Part shown: in pieces, positions 24,161 through 39,714 of the stretch
How positions within the stretch are numbered: the stretch's first letter is position 1
Layout: each line of letters starts with the position of its first letter
From: Pseudodesulfovibrio alkaliphilus
GTDB lineage: Bacteria; Desulfobacterota; Desulfovibrionia; Desulfovibrionales; Desulfovibrionaceae
Reading direction: 5' to 3'
Length of the DNA stretch: 64,000 bases
Assembly (NCBI RefSeq): GCF_009729555.1
Contig: NZ_WODC01000002.1
Span: 124,001 to 188,000, forward strand
Notes under the pieces: generated by a model
Told to the model about the DNA's origin: nothing
Databases searched by the model: none
What the model saw: only the letters and a program-made list of their open reading frames with translations
Translations under genes and position numbers: made by a program

Positions 24161-25033
24161 ATGGAGATCACCAAGGCAGTCATTCCCGTCGCCGGATGGG
24201 GCACCCGTTCGCTCCCCGCCACCAAGAACGTCCCCAAGGAGATGCTGCCCATCTTCCGCAAGCCCATCGTCCAGTACATCGTGGAGGAGGGCATCGGCGC
24301 GGGTATAACCGATGTGGTCTTTGTCACCAACCAGAACAAGACCATCATTGAGGACCACTTTGACCGCAACTTTCTGCTTGAACAGCTCCTGGCCAGGGCA
24401 GCCAAGGTGGACATGCTCGAAGAGGTCCGTCGCGTGGCCGACATGGTCAACGTCATTGCCGTGCGCCAGAAGGAACAGCTCGGCCTGGGCCATGCCGTCC
24501 TCACGGCCCGCGAGGTCTGCCGCAACGAACCCTTTGCGGTCATGCTTGGCGACGATCTTATGTTCGGCCGCGACACCGGGATAGGCGAGCTGATCAAAGC
24601 CGCCAGGACCGAGAACAAGGCCGTGGTGGGCGTCATCGAAGTCCCGAGGCACAAGGTCAGCAAGTACGGGGTGATCAAGGGCACGGAATTCGCCAAGGGC
24701 ATGTACACGGTTTCGAGCCTCGTGGAAAAGCCTTCGGTGGAGGAGGCCCCTTCGAACCTTGCCATCATTGGCCGCTATGTTCTGTTGCCCGAGATTTTCG
24801 ACATTCTCGCCGGGCAAAAAGCGGGTGTGGGCGGTGAAATCCAGCTGACGGACGCCCTGCAGGGACTGGCCGACCGTGACAAGCTCATCGCCGTCAAGCT
24901 CCAGGGGCAGCGGTTCGATGCCGGAGACTGGGTGGAGTACCTGACGGCCAACATCTATTTCGCCCTTCAGGACGAGGAGCTTCGCGACGAACTAGTCAAA
25001 CGCCTCCAGGAGTTGCTGTCTTGTCCAAGCTGA
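24161..25033 (+). CDS. galU: UTP-glucose-1-phosphate uridylyltransferase
   Basis: This 290-residue nucleotidyltransferase makes UDP-glucose. It has the N-terminal nucleotide loop PVAGWGTRSLPATKNVPKEM and the VTNQNK, LGDDL and EKPS motifs of GalU. It follows glmM closely and has a strong GGAGG-type site. Its product feeds envelope polysaccharides such as those implied by the glycosyltransferases near 40-46 kb. Confidence 0.96.
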   Translation: MEITKAVIPVAGWGTRSLPATKNVPKEMLPIFRKPIVQYIVEEGIGAGITDVVFVTNQNKTIIEDHFDRNFLLEQLLARAAKVDMLEEVRRVADMVNVIAVRQKEQLGLGHAVLTAREVCRNEPFAVMLGDDLMFGRDTGIGELIKAARTENKAVVGVIEVPRHKVSKYGVIKGTEFAKGMYTVSSLVEKPSVEEAPSNLAIIGRYVLLPEIFDILAGQKAGVGGEIQLTDALQGLADRDKLIAVKLQGQRFDAGDWVEYLTANIYFALQDEELRDELVKRLQELLSCPS

Positions 25034-25809
25034 TCCCCGCCCTGTGCCTTGTGGCCCTTGTGGCGTTCATGGTGCCGCCTGTCGGCGCTGTTTCGGCTGA
25101 CGAGGAGGAACTCGCCCGGGCGTTGCGCAGACAGTATGGCGGGTTGACTTCCTGGGAGGCGGTCATGACCTTTGCCGACTCTCCCGGCGTATCTGTCCAT
25201 GTCTGGCAGTCCCGCGGTCGCTGGCGGCAGGAGTGGACCTTTCCCGCGGAACCGTCAGGTGCATCGCATAACGGGTCCGTTGCCGACTCGGGCGAAGCCT
25301 TTGCCGTGGCCGTGGGCATGGATGGCCGGGTGGTGGCTTCCTGTCTTGAGGGCGATTTTGCCCTGTCCCCGCTTATGCTCTGGATGCCTGCCGGTCCCGT
25401 GGACCGATGGAAGGCATGGGGTGTGGACATCGCCGAACGCAGTTATGGGTTTTGCGGGGATGCGCCCTGCCTCATGCTCGGGGCAGAACCGGGGGACGCT
25501 GTCGGTCCTGCCGTTTGGCTGCATAACGAGGATATGGCACCGCTCATGGTGCGCTACAGGGACGGAAGACGGATGGTGGAAATCCAATTTGCCGGGTATC
25601 TGACCCTGTCGGGATTCCGGTTGCCGGGGCAGGTGAATATCCGGGTCGGCGATGCTGCGACGACCGCCACTGTACGCTGGATCGCGATCAATCGAGCCGA
25701 CGGCGAGGCGCTGTATGCGCGGGACAATCTCGGTTCCCGGCCTTGCGCGGTGCCTCCGCCGCCTTTTGACCTTCTGCGCGACGCCGTTCGCCATCCTTCC
25801 CCGGAATAG
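25021..25809 (+). CDS. Secreted hypothetical protein downstream of galU
   Basis: This 262-residue protein is not confidently assigned. It starts with TTG at 25021, overlapping the galU end by 13 bp, with AGGAG eight bases upstream. A signal peptide is clear (about 1-26, ending VSADEEE). The early pattern, with an RQYGGLTSWEAVMTF-type helix followed by beta strands such as RGRWRQEWTF, is reminiscent of LolA-like lipoprotein-carrier folds, but this is weak. Two Cys in FCGDAPC could form a disulfide. It is cotranscribed between galU and priA. Confidence 0.75.
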   Translation: MSKLIPALCLVALVAFMVPPVGAVSADEEELARALRRQYGGLTSWEAVMTFADSPGVSVHVWQSRGRWRQEWTFPAEPSGASHNGSVADSGEAFAVAVGMDGRVVASCLEGDFALSPLMLWMPAGPVDRWKAWGVDIAERSYGFCGDAPCLMLGAEPGDAVGPAVWLHNEDMAPLMVRYRDGRRMVEIQFAGYLTLSGFRLPGQVNIRVGDAATTATVRWIAINRADGEALYARDNLGSRPCAVPPPPFDLLRDAVRHPSPE

Positions 25810-25818
25810 GTGGCCGCC

Positions 25819-28194
25819 ATGGCCGATCTCTGGCAGGTCACTCTTGTCAGTCCTCCCTATCACACGCTGACTTACGAGCGTCCGCCGCATTTTCCCCAGC
25901 TGGTTCCGGGGCTGCGCGTCATTGTCCCCTTGGGCCGGTCCCATCGCATGGGCGTGGTCGTCGGTCCTGCCGACAAGGAGGGCCAGGATCGGCCGGAAGG
26001 CATGGTTTTCAAAGCCATGATCTGGCCTCTGGAAACGTCCCCGCTGCTGGACTCGGCGTATCTTGATCTGGCCGCCAACCTTGCCACCCGGCAGATGGCC
26101 AGTCCTGGGCGCATTCTCGAAACCCTCCTGCCGCGGGGTCTGCGCACTGCTGCCGTCACCTTCCGCGTGGACCGGCATGTGGCGGATCGGCCTTTGCCGG
26201 GCTCGATTCGGCCCGCCGAGCTTGCCAGACTGACCGGGGCCGACAGGCAGGCGCTCATGGAGTTGTGGCTTGCCGGGCGGATGCGGGTGCGGATCAATGC
26301 CAAGCGCGAGGAGGAAGAGCGTTTCGTTTCCCTTGTCTCGGACCCGCCCTGGGCCGTTCGACCCAATGCCAAGCGGCAGATACGAATCCTCGAACACCTT
26401 TTGGACAATGGGCCGCAAAGCCTCTTTTCCTTGCGCCATGCTCTTGGCGAATGGGCCGTGGAAACCGCCGCGAAGATGGAAGGGGCGGGCTTGGTCTCGC
26501 TGGGCGAGTTGACCGCAGACCGTCTGGCCGAGGTGGACGCCGGGCCCGGTCCTTGCGTCGGGCGCGAACCTCCTGCATTTGTCCTCACCGACGAGCAGCG
26601 TACCGCCCTCGAGGCTCTGCGGGCGACCATGGACGGGGCGGGCGGGGCGCACCTTGTCCACGGCGTCACCGGCAGCGGCAAGACCATACTCTACCTCGAA
26701 CTGGTTCGCGCTTGTCTTGAGCGGGGTCGTTCGGCCATGCTCCTTGCGCCGGAGGTGGCCCTGGCTTACCGGGTACACAGGGTTGCGGCCGAGCATTTTC
26801 CTGGGCGGCGCATTCTCTTTTATCATGGCTATCAGAGCCCTCTGAAACGCGAGACCGCCTTTGTTGACGCCGCTCGGGAAGGGGAGCCTTTCGTGGTCGT
26901 GGGTACGCGCTCGGCCCTGTTCCTGCCTGTGTCCGATCTCGGGCTTGTGGTGCTTGACGAGGAGCACGACGAGTCGTTCAAGCAGGACGAACGGTTGGCC
27001 TATCATGCCAAGGAGGTGGCCTGGTTCCGCGCCGAGCGCGGAGGCGGTCTGTTGGTGCTCGGCTCGGCCACGCCGGACGTGAAGACCTTCCACGCCGCCC
27101 GCAGCGGGACCATCGCCATGTCCAGTCTGACCCGCCGGGTGGGGGAAAGCGTGTTGCCCGGCGTGGAGCTGGTGGACATCTCATCCCTGGCCGGCTCGGC
27201 CGCTCCCTTTGCCCCGGCCACCGAGGCGGCAATTCGCCAGACCGTGGAGCAGGGGCGTCAGGCCATCGTCATGCTCAACCGGCGGGGGTACGCGCCACTC
27301 ATGTACTGTCTCGACTGCGGTGAGACCGTGCGTTGCTCCGAGTGCGAGGTGGGCATGACCTATCACAAGGGCCGAGAGCGGCTTCTCTGCCACTACTGCG
27401 GCCAGTCCAGGTCCTATCCGCTGCTCTGCGCCCGTTGCGGGGGGGGCAATTTCGTTCCCATGGGCGAGGGCACCGAGCGGATCAAGGAGCATCTGGAAGA
27501 GTTGTTGCCCGAGGGGGCCAAGGTGCTGCGCCTGGACCGCGACGCCACCCGGCGTCAGGAGCGGCTGGAAGATATCCTGGGTGCCTTTGGGCGGGGAGAG
27601 GCGCAGGTGTTGGTCGGGACGCAGATGATTTCCAAGGGACACCACTTTCCTGATGTGACCCTGGTGGCTGTGGCCGACGGCGACCTGGGACTGAGTTTGC
27701 CTGACTACCGGGCCACGGAGCGGACTTTCCAGTTGCTGGTCCAGGTGGCTGGCCGCGCCGGACGCGGCCTTGAGCCGGGGCGGGTTCTGATTCAGACGCG
27801 CAACCCCGGCCATCCCATCTGGCGAGATGTACTCTCCGCTGATTACGCGGCCTTTTACGAGCGTGAAATCGGGCGGCGCAGACTCTTTGGCTACCCGCCC
27901 TTCACCCGGCTCGCACTGGTGCGTATCAGCCATCCGGCGGACTTTGCCGGGGCGGCCGCCCTTGATCTTTTGGGCCGGGTGCTGGCCGAAAGGGCCAGGG
28001 AGCTAGGCATCACCGCTCTGGGGCCGGCTCCGGCCCCGTTGGCCATGCTGCGCGGGCGCAGGCGGTTCAACTGTTTGTTCAAGGGCGACGACTGGGGCAG
28101 AATCCGCGTCCTGTTCGCACATCTTGTGCAGGCCAATCCCTGTCCGACCAAGGTGCGTCTCGGTTTGGACCTGGACCCTTTGACAACCCTGTGA
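25819..28194 (+). CDS. priA: Primosomal protein N' (replication restart helicase PriA)
   Basis: This PriA of about 791 residues restarts stalled replication forks. It has the N-terminal 3'-DNA-binding domain, helicase motif I GVTGSGKTILY, the DEEH box, and a zinc-binding region with Cys pairs (CLDCGETVRCSEC, CHYCGQ, CARCGG). Motif V/VI segments include GTQMISKGHHFPDV and QVAGRAGRG. ATG at 25819 is preferred over GTG at 25810 because it gives the conserved N-terminus. It follows the secreted protein gene directly. Confidence 0.95.
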   Translation: MADLWQVTLVSPPYHTLTYERPPHFPQLVPGLRVIVPLGRSHRMGVVVGPADKEGQDRPEGMVFKAMIWPLETSPLLDSAYLDLAANLATRQMASPGRILETLLPRGLRTAAVTFRVDRHVADRPLPGSIRPAELARLTGADRQALMELWLAGRMRVRINAKREEEERFVSLVSDPPWAVRPNAKRQIRILEHLLDNGPQSLFSLRHALGEWAVETAAKMEGAGLVSLGELTADRLAEVDAGPGPCVGREPPAFVLTDEQRTALEALRATMDGAGGAHLVHGVTGSGKTILYLELVRACLERGRSAMLLAPEVALAYRVHRVAAEHFPGRRILFYHGYQSPLKRETAFVDAAREGEPFVVVGTRSALFLPVSDLGLVVLDEEHDESFKQDERLAYHAKEVAWFRAERGGGLLVLGSATPDVKTFHAARSGTIAMSSLTRRVGESVLPGVELVDISSLAGSAAPFAPATEAAIRQTVEQGRQAIVMLNRRGYAPLMYCLDCGETVRCSECEVGMTYHKGRERLLCHYCGQSRSYPLLCARCGGGNFVPMGEGTERIKEHLEELLPEGAKVLRLDRDATRRQERLEDILGAFGRGEAQVLVGTQMISKGHHFPDVTLVAVADGDLGLSLPDYRATERTFQLLVQVAGRAGRGLEPGRVLIQTRNPGHPIWRDVLSADYAAFYEREIGRRRLFGYPPFTRLALVRISHPADFAGAAALDLLGRVLAERARELGITALGPAPAPLAMLRGRRRFNCLFKGDDWGRIRVLFAHLVQANPCPTKVRLGLDLDPLTTL

Positions 28195-37123: not shown

Positions 37124-37454
37124 TGACACGCCCGGCCAGAGAGGCGCAGGGGCAGTTTGATCCGCATTTGACACTTGCCAGTCCGAAGTGGCGAAGCCGC
37201 GTTGGCAGGTGTCTCCAAGCCATGCGTCATGCTGGTTCACGATTCAACAATTGGCTGTTCTGTCATGTGTGTGTCAGCCATGTTGTGATGCGGACAATGG
37301 CTTCGAAAAAAGATGTTTGATCCTCTTTGGGCGGAACGATGCGTATTGGTCGTCTCCTTTCGATATACGATAATTATTTTTTTGCCGGGCTTGTTCTGGT
37401 GTAATTGGTGATGTATTTTCAAGCCATATCAATACATCAGAAAGGAGTTCTATT
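37124..37454. other. AT-rich intergenic region with a hairpin
   Basis: No gene is supported in this 331-bp stretch. ACACTTGCCA (37171-37180) pairs with TGGCAGGTGT (37203-37212) around a smaller GTGGC/GCCGC stem. There is no T run, so it is not a standard terminator. The part after 37240 is clearly more AT-rich than its neighbours. Confidence 0.5.
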
Positions 37455-37751
37455 ATGTGCAAGACATGCGGTTGCAATCCTGGAAGTTCTCGAAGAGTGC
37501 ATGAACACGCCCACAGCGGCAAGAATGCTCACGATCACGAGCATGAGCATCAGCATGCCCATGTGCATGAGCATACCCATGCTGACGGCACCACGCATGC
37601 CCATGAGCATTCTCATGTACACAGCCACAGCCACAGTCATGGTCACGGGCTTGGTGTCGAGGGGGAGCATGAACACTGGCACGGGGCGCACAGCCACGAC
37701 AACGAGCATGCCCACAAGGACGCCGGAGGCCATGACCACAGCCACGACTGA
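37455..37751 (+). CDS. Histidine-rich putative metal-binding protein
   Basis: This 98-residue protein contains about thirty His, mostly as repeated H-x-H with Glu, Ala, Ser or Asp between. The N-terminus is MCKTCGCNPG, a CxxCxC motif. Such composition strongly implies Ni/Zn/Co/Cu binding or storage, as in the tails of HypB or metal chaperones, but no hydrogenase or urease gene is nearby. It has a strong AAGGAG site before ATG 37455. An insertion sequence begins 40 bp after its stop and has separated it from a likely original shared terminator at 39598-39630. Confidence 0.8.
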   Translation: MCKTCGCNPGSSRRVHEHAHSGKNAHDHEHEHQHAHVHEHTHADGTTHAHEHSHVHSHSHSHGHGLGVEGEHEHWHGAHSHDNEHAHKDAGGHDHSHD

Positions 37752-37791: not shown

Positions 37792-37856
37792 GGCGCATTT
37801 TGAAAATATTGTTGCTAAATCTGGCAACCGCTCATAACGATTGAGAAAAATGCGCC
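37792..37856. repeat. Left IS end: palindromic subterminal structure
   Basis: GGCGCATTTT (37792-37801) faces AAAATGCGCC (37847-37856), with an inner GTTGC/GCAAC stem. The structure may serve transposase binding or end the passenger gene transcript, whose stop lies 3 bp away. Confidence 0.7.
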
Positions 37857-37858
37857 GA

Positions 37859-38467
37859 CTATTCGGGCGAAATGACAATGGATGGGGCCGTGAGTTCTTC
37901 GGAGCGCACGGCCCATTTTGTTGCCAGCAGGGCTGCGGCGGCCATCGAGAACGCAGGCTGGTCAGGAATATCGGAATCCAACCGATCTCCCCGGTCCATA
38001 AAGGCTTTCACGGCCAAGTCCGCATCGTCGGCATGATCGTTCCCCTTGTGCTTCCCGGAGACGAACGCTTCCCATACCAGCAAGCCGCCATCGCGGAACC
38101 AGGTCGCCGGGACCGTCGTGGCCGGAATGTCGCCGTTCAAGGCCGATTTCAAGACGTTCAGGCACAGCGGCATCAGGGCGAGGGCCTGGGCCGTCACCGT
38201 GCAACCGGCGCTGGCCGACCAAGGACGGTTCAAGGATGATTCGAGATCGCCACGGCTTTTGTTGAAGGTGGTCAGGTCGTCACGTAGCGGCACCCAGATG
38301 GGAGCTTCGAAACCCAAGGCGACGGGTTGTCCATCGGCCAGCTTCGCACCCGCATAAGCAAGTTGCTCCTCAAGGGTGGTGTACCCGCCTCTGTTGCCTT
38401 CGCTGTCGGCCCATCCGAGATTTTCGGCCTTGCCGACATCTATGGCCAATACATAGGCAGTTGCCAT
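37859..38467 (-). CDS. RNase H-fold (DUF429-like) passenger protein of the IS
   Basis: This 202-residue protein starts MATAYVLAIDVGKAENLGWAD, a beta strand with Asp typical of RNase H-like nucleases. Further acidic positions are GFEAPIW and HADDADLAVKAF, so a metal-dependent nuclease fold is plausible. It lies inside the IS, 16 bp after the transposase stop, with its own AAGGAGG. It is probably carried and coexpressed with the transposase. A role in transposition, defence or host interference is not known. The reading frame is intact, unlike the transposase. Confidence 0.72.
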   Translation of the reverse strand: MATAYVLAIDVGKAENLGWADSEGNRGGYTTLEEQLAYAGAKLADGQPVALGFEAPIWVPLRDDLTTFNKSRGDLESSLNRPWSASAGCTVTAQALALMPLCLNVLKSALNGDIPATTVPATWFRDGGLLVWEAFVSGKHKGNDHADDADLAVKAFMDRGDRLDSDIPDQPAFSMAAAALLATKWAVRSEELTAPSIVISPE

Positions 38468-38483
38468 CGGTCGTCCTCCTTGG

Positions 38484-39509
38484 TCACGCCGCATCCGGCA
38501 TGGGGAATGATTCCGTGGTCAGCCTATCCATCTTGCGGCATGCCGTCAGCAACAACTTCTTGCGCCTACTGCGCTCGCCAAGATCCTTGGTCTGTTCAAG
38601 CAGCCTGAACCAGTACAGGTAGTGGTTGAGATACTTGGTGGCGACCCCGTTGAAACGGCGCATCCATTTCTTCAAACGGGAATGGTATCCGTTGGCTCGC
38701 TGGATGTGGTAAATGCCCTGCTTGCGTATGCCCTAGTTGGGATTGACCCAGACGTGCTGCATCCCGTTTTGCTCCGCATACTTGCGGAAAGCCGCCGCCG
38801 CGTCCGTCACCAGGATCGCTTTCGGATCGAGGATGTCGCCCACGGTGTCGTGTATCTTTTTCGGCGTGGTGCCGCCGCGCCCGGATGTCTTGCAGACGAT
38901 GCTGCCGTCCCTGGAGATCACCGCCATGACCGCCACCTGTTCCTTGGAGATACCGCGCTTCGCGGCCTTGCCGCCCCGTTTGCGGGCTTTCCTGAACGTC
39001 AAGTCGCGCTTGCCCTTGTAGGATTCAAGGAAGTACGTCTCGTCCGTTTCGAGGACTCCGGTCAGTTTTTGCCCGTCCCCCAGCTTGAAGAGGGCGTGTA
39101 GCACCTTATGCCGCCAGTAGAATGCGGTGGTGATGCTGATATCCAAGGCCTCGGCACACTTTTTCAGGGTTTTCCCCTCAAGCATGAGCTGGATGTATTC
39201 CATCTACCTGTCAGGGAAATGCGTCCCGGCCATGGGTGTCGCGGTCCAATCGTTGAACGTCCGCTTGCACGAATGACACAGGTAGCGTTGCCGCCCGTCG
39301 TAGGTGCCGTTGCGCTTGATCTTGTCGCTGCCGCATCGGGGACATACCGGCCCGTCAGCGAACCGGGCTTCCCGGATGTCGTCGAGATGGTCGGAAATGG
39401 GGAGCAGCTCACCCAATATCCGTCTGACATGGTTGTAGAAAGTCTTTTTCTCTTCGCCGTCCAGGCCGTTGAACGTCCTGAGCATCCATTCCAGCTTGTT
39501 TTCCCGCAT
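38484..39509 (-). pseudogene. IS1595-family transposase interrupted by two in-frame TAG codons
   Basis: Read on the minus strand, one frame of 342 codons runs from ATG 39509 to the stop at 38484. It is broken only by TAG at 39204-39206 and TAG at 38733-38735. Part 1 (102 codons) has the N-terminal zinc ribbon CPRCGSDKIKRNG ... CHSCKRTF. Part 2 has the helix-turn-helix KKCAEALDISITTAFYWRHKV and the DDE region GVLETDETYFLES and ILVTDAAAAFRKYA. Part 3 has [20 protein letters not shown], the conserved C-terminal segment. The first TAG falls where the family usually has Trp. There is no frameshift. It is either a recent pseudogene or is read through. Confidence 0.88.
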
Positions 39510-39591
39510 GGCTCCACCCTCCAGCTACAAGTGGGAACCTTCTATATTAAGCTGAATTTTTCGAATGGCAACAGAATTCTGAAAATGCGCC

Positions 39592-39599
39592 AAAGGAAA
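39592..39599. repeat. Target-site duplication, right copy (AAAGGAAA)
   Basis: Identical to 37784-37791. It forms the foot of the tRNA-fMet terminator stem and its T tract on the minus strand. Confidence 0.9.
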
Positions 39600-39630
39600 A
39601 GCGGTTATGACATGGTGTCATAACCGCTTT
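39598..39630. terminator. Terminator of tRNA-fMet, probably bidirectional
   Basis: A perfect 15-bp stem (39598-39612 with 39616-39630) has a 3-nt loop. On the minus strand it is followed by TTCCTTT. Before the IS inserted, it probably also ended the convergent His-rich gene. Confidence 0.85.
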
Positions 39631-39638
39631 GCTTTCTC

Positions 39639-39714
<76 letters not shown>

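Follow-up and report, generated by a model that had tools for sequence, protein, structure and literature searches.

The window analysed here, a stretch of 64,000 nucleotides from Pseudodesulfovibrio alkaliphilus, contains an insertion sequence (IS) whose transposase frame is interrupted by two in-frame TAG codons. We conclude, with a probability of about 95%, that a single copy of an IS1595-family element entered the T-rich tail that follows a tRNA-Met gene, and that its transposase was lost via two point mutations to TAG. The pseudogenisation is probably recent, since the second ORF of the element is intact and the transposase frame has no frameshift, so that the decay would have to be young. 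The features on which this reading is based are collected in Table 1.

Table 1. Features of the insertion sequence and its insertion site (positions in the window)
Feature	Position	Strand	Basis
Whole insertion sequence, IS1595 family, 1800 bp	37792..39591	-	inverted repeats and target duplication; same ends at 21 G248 junctions
Target-site duplication, copy 1, AAAGGAAA	37784..37791	.	flanking 8-mer comparison
Target-site duplication, copy 2, AAAGGAAA	39592..39599	.	flanking 8-mer comparison
Terminal inverted repeat, passenger end	37792..37815	.	also matches G248 junction ends
Terminal inverted repeat, transposase end	39568..39591	.	also matches G248 junction ends
Transposase frame, 341 codons and terminal stop, two in-frame TAG	38484..39509	-	translation; Pfam and NCBIfam on read-through protein
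TAG, codon 102; Trp in 100 of 109 relatives	39204..39206	-	translation and alignment of relatives
TAG, codon 259; variable, mostly Lys/Gln/Glu in relatives	38733..38735	-	translation and alignment of relatives
Passenger ORF, 202 aa (211 aa from start at 38494), intact, ends in TAG	37859..38467	-	ORF list and element limits
Terminator-like hairpin behind tRNA-Met; IS in its T-rich tail	39593..39635	-	inverted repeat
tRNA-Met(CAT), just upstream of insertion	39639..39714	-	tRNA gene

The element and its two genes

The IS lies well inside a 361-kb contig of a draft genome of 29 contigs. At 1800 bp it is longer than the transposase alone and includes a second intact ORF, which was absent from the first-pass annotation. 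The 24-nt terminal inverted repeats match at 20 of 24 positions, both ends begin GGCGCATTTT, and the 8-bp target duplication AAAGGAAA is exact, with one copy on each side, which agrees with the earlier description of both structures as intact. The imperfect repeats are the normal ends of the element, because the same two end sequences recur where the element joins its flanks in G248, another species of the genus with many copies. Inverted repeats beginning with GG are also typical of the IS1595 family.

Translation of 38484-39509 on the minus strand revealed no frameshift, so the frame is indeed broken only by the two TAG codons, as had been claimed. The read-through protein matches NCBIfam NF033547 (IS1595 transposase) with 188 bits (cut-off 75) and the domain DDE_Tnp_IS1595 (PF12762) with 43.8 bits over residues 148-298 (cut-off 27). 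D156, D236 and N273, which we take to be the catalytic residues of an enzyme of the DDN type, are retained in the alignment with relatives. The stops split the transposase into pieces of 101, 156 and 82 codons. The zinc ribbon PF12760 is found on the first fragment alone (33 bits, cut-off 25.4; residues 46-84 of the read-through protein), while the middle fragment alone reaches 26.1 bits against the IS1595 DDE domain, just below the cut-off of 27. As the three pieces part the zinc ribbon from both catalytic Asp, and these in turn from the third catalytic residue, no working enzyme would result; translation would halt at codon 102 and leave a zinc ribbon without the catalytic domain. We also considered a restart at the ATG at 39201-39203, directly after the first TAG. 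Its product would run only to the second TAG, short of N273, and such a restart would not be able to restore the transposase.

The second ORF, called the passenger here, has no match in Pfam, NCBIfam or PHROG, no phage match, none confirmed in viral contigs, and no clear relative in PDB (best E 0.46). Besides its own genome, only G248 among 288 family genomes contains a relative, and one more (G482) was found among 395 sampled phylum genomes. Distant relatives with 30-39% identity occur in 5 plasmid records (Vibrio, Tsukamurella, Pimelobacter, Rhizobium), and no IS1595 gene is annotated within 4 kb in the two of these five records that were inspected. Compared with G248, where the terminal TAG is also present, the passenger shows 4 silent differences and 1 non-silent difference over 55 comparable codons. 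By eye, the stretches IDVG, FEAP and DHADDAD suggest a likeness to RNase H-like nucleases; the AlphaFold model from the single sequence (mean pLDDT 39.5) is too poor to test this.

Insertion site and copies in related genomes

In G230, another genome of the genus, tRNA-Met, hairpin and T-rich tail are uninterrupted (locus L206, 91% match), and by eye the neighbours of that tRNA resemble the glycosyltransferase and ThiC genes of the window. G230 lacks the IS at this position behind the tRNA, with the empty site visible on the tRNA side only. The other flank of the IS matches elsewhere in several genus genomes, and no genome among 36 in the genus has both flanks together.

A DNA search of the window's own genome, of the kind the first-pass annotation had proposed for finding other copies, gave one match, the window copy itself, and a protein search added a single match, which is very weak (27% identity, E 8.5e-4). 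The window IS is the single copy found in its draft genome. In G248, an assembly of 470 contigs that is 82% complete, there are 22 matches to the IS, one of which was dropped as the inverted repeat of another. The remaining 21 (loci L180, L183 and L185-L203) consist of 11 left and 10 right junctions with 95-99% identity. All of them reach a contig end 51 to 234 bp into the element, as would a repeat at which the assembly breaks off, and this assembly yielded no match to the interior where the two codons lie. Four left-right junction pairs share their 8-mer, giving 11 to 17 insertion sites, and this number of insertions indicates that the element moves. Searches of plasmids and viral contigs for a closer copy gave only one weak DNA match of 98 bases in plasmids, 142 plasmid records by protein (best 48%), and 4 transposase relatives in viral contigs (best 46%); the exact left repeat had no match in viral contigs.

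The insertions of G248 and the window lie in A/T-rich 8-mers (88% AT in 17 sites vs 38% in flanking DNA), and several insertion sites adjoin terminator-like hairpins, with a P of about 0.007 for the mean fold. Folds of at most -14 kcal/mol flank 4 of 21 junctions vs 5% of AT-matched controls, and at -10 kcal/mol the figures are 6 of 21 junctions vs 19% of controls; controls with the same AT count were available for 19 of the 21 junctions, and four sites are counted twice. Besides, a very His-rich stretch with dense short repeats (37441-37750) lies beside the IS. It is partly conserved in the genus (70-76%) and possibly belongs to a metal-binding protein.

Origin of the two TAG codons

To place the stops among related transposases, we compared the window's transposase with 113 related loci, some of which share a genome; the window's own locus was excluded. 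Trp occupies column 102 in 100 of the 109 loci that cover this codon, and in 97% of 75 stop-free relatives, so the remark that IS1595 enzymes usually have Trp at the first TAG is well founded. For the second TAG, which had been suggested to come from CAG, column 259 has mostly Lys (48 of 108 covering loci), with Gln in 23, Glu in 12 and gaps in 6. No stop occurs at either column in the covering relatives (109 and 108 loci, respectively). The nearest relatives readable at both codons show about 67% identity in their longest segments; the closest copies are those of G248, whose interiors are missing from the assembly. These nearest readable relatives are two loci of the same-genus genome G234, with Trp and Lys at the two columns, and both are broken themselves, L004 by one TAG, one TGA and one frameshift and L028 by the loss of about 180 bp together with a change of frame.

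In-frame stops were found in 20 of the 113 related loci (L006 and L093, both among the 20, are the same contig), which indicates that dead copies of this kind are common. Four of the 113 have two or more stops, two of them with a single type of stop (TGA in L064, TAA in L069). We also counted deviations at the 55 columns that are at least 90% conserved among 75 distinct stop-free relatives, with leave-one-out counts for the relatives themselves. The window protein deviates at 5 of these columns, codon 102 among them, while the stop-free relatives deviate at 0 to 13 (median 1; 15 of 75 at 5 or more), and thus the window copy is on the upper side of the spread, yet inside the range.

Two identical stops had been regarded as unusual, and this view does not survive the codon composition of the gene. 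When all one-step changes from its sense codons are counted, 53% of new stops would be TAG, the probability that both stops are TAG is 0.28, and the probability that both are of the same type is 0.39-0.40. With an assumed GC-to-AT bias, these two probabilities are 0.24 and 0.37.

As for the host, release factor RF1 is present (prfA, 540 bits, cut-off 423). Neither the window's genome nor its 35 genus mates contain PylS (TIGR02367) above the cut-off; the window's genome has two weak matches below it (best E 6.9e-5). Such sub-threshold matches, probably to related synthetases, occur in most of the family genomes and in 12 of the 14 genomes used as controls. Above the cut-off, PylS was found in 7 of 288 family genomes, none of this genus (G274, G275, G044, G046, G011, G101 and G103; loci L113-L119), and in 1 of the 14 controls. 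One of the seven, G011, also holds an IS1595 fragment, which has no stops. No CTA anticodon exists among 48 tRNA matches to RF00005, all typed by ARAGORN; as Ile-GAT and Ala-TGC were not found, the list is incomplete, and an amber suppressor tRNA may be hidden in an assembly gap. The statement that several intact genes of the window end in TAG is confirmed: TAG ends 19 of 53 long non-overlapping ORFs, which were chosen mechanically and some of which are probably spurious, and 8 of 10 scanned TAG-ended ORFs have Pfam domains. Judged from the genes of the window, TAG appears by every sign to be an ordinary stop in this host.

There is another TAG in the window with a long open frame behind it. 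At 25021-28194 (+), a 262-codon ORF without known family and priA lie in one frame, split by TAG at 25807-25809. A second interrupted gene (794 open codons behind the stop) was considered here and rejected, since priA lies behind and the stops of the genus mates vary. Among 15 genus genomes with a match, 10 besides the window's were read over or beside the boundary; the stop there is TAG, TAA or TGA in nine genus genomes, and in five the ORF and priA are separate matches with coordinates in different frames. We take the TAG before priA as a putative real gene end, that is, a plain stop. Against this reading counts that in two order-level relatives (G666 and G671) the matches to both parts fall in equally long open frames (1063 and 1061 aa), which suggests a fusion of ORF and priA there.

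The first-pass annotation had left the choice between very recent decay and TAG readthrough. The decay side of this alternative stands, with a single copy, covering relatives free of stops at these codons, little other damage and many insertions of the element in G248, and the readthrough side does not. If a suppressor tRNA, pyrrolysine or another recoding system read the two codons, the transposase would work, and the absence of a frameshift, the scarcity of other damage, the identity of the two stops, the occurrence of PylS above the cut-off elsewhere in the family and the TAG-containing transposases described for Methanosarcina acetivorans (in an excerpt of PMC3639795) would all fit. However, the genome and its genus mates have no PylS above the cut-off, RF1 is present and no CTA anticodon appears among the tRNA matches, the covering relatives have no TAG at these columns, the first TAG stands at a Trp position, and both the window ORFs with Pfam domains and the passenger in the same IS end in TAG; we therefore consider working readthrough extremely improbable. 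Equally hard to credit is a weaker form, with slight suppression of TAG in the host, either by a tRNA that escaped the search or by near-cognate decoding, and an IS that limits itself to traces of full-length enzyme. Slightly less improbable, though still very unlikely, is an error of sequencing or assembly. The draft in 29 contigs is the single source for this copy, but a single-copy IS inside a 361-kb contig is not a collapsed repeat, and two independent base errors in one gene would be unlikely in a draft rated 99.99% complete.

More room has to be given to the possibility that the copy was dead on arrival: the intact transposase of another copy, now gone, would have mobilised it in trans, and both stops would be older than the insertion. 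Such a history modifies the pseudogene reading and is no true rival to it. The intact ends and the exact target duplication accord with it, and the multi-copy state of the element in G248 makes a supply in trans conceivable; on the other hand, the genome has no second copy now, and the covering relatives have no stop at these codons, the interiors in G248 being unread. On balance, we regard arrival in a dead state as rather unlikely. In the likely course of events, an active IS1595-family element would have reached the lineage, the insertion behind tRNA-Met would have duplicated 8 bp of the T-rich tail, and two point changes would have cost the element its transposase. We infer that the mutations to TAG arose after the insertion or shortly before it. 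No selection would be needed, as a harmless dead single copy would simply stay.

Comparison with known systems

In an excerpt of PMC3639795, two clusters of TAG-containing transposases are annotated in Methanosarcina acetivorans. The window transposase resembles these pyrrolysine-containing transposases in having TAG in frame inside the gene. In contrast to that case, the window's host has no PylS above the cut-off and no CTA tRNA among those found, and the relatives of the window transposase have no TAG at these columns. The result speaks against the claim of recoding for this host. Its remaining value lies in an element of the IS1595 family with many copies in a related species and a dead one here, which may serve mainly for tracking IS decay and target choice in the genus.

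For the IS1595 family, an excerpt of PMC8101967 gives 8-bp duplications, a zinc finger, a DDE domain and usually a single transposase gene, and for the related Merlin elements it states that the inverted repeats begin with GG. Like the family, the window IS has an 8-bp target duplication, GG-starting inverted repeats and an N-terminal zinc ribbon, as well as a C-terminal DDE_Tnp_IS1595 domain with the Asp-Asp-Asn positions retained. Unlike most members as described in that excerpt, it adds a 202-aa ORF to the transposase gene, which does not bar membership, since the same source (PMC8101967) says only "usually". Unlike autonomous IS1595 copies, its transposase is interrupted by two stops. In conclusion, the window copy is not autonomous under the standard code, while its assignment to the IS1595 family is unaffected.
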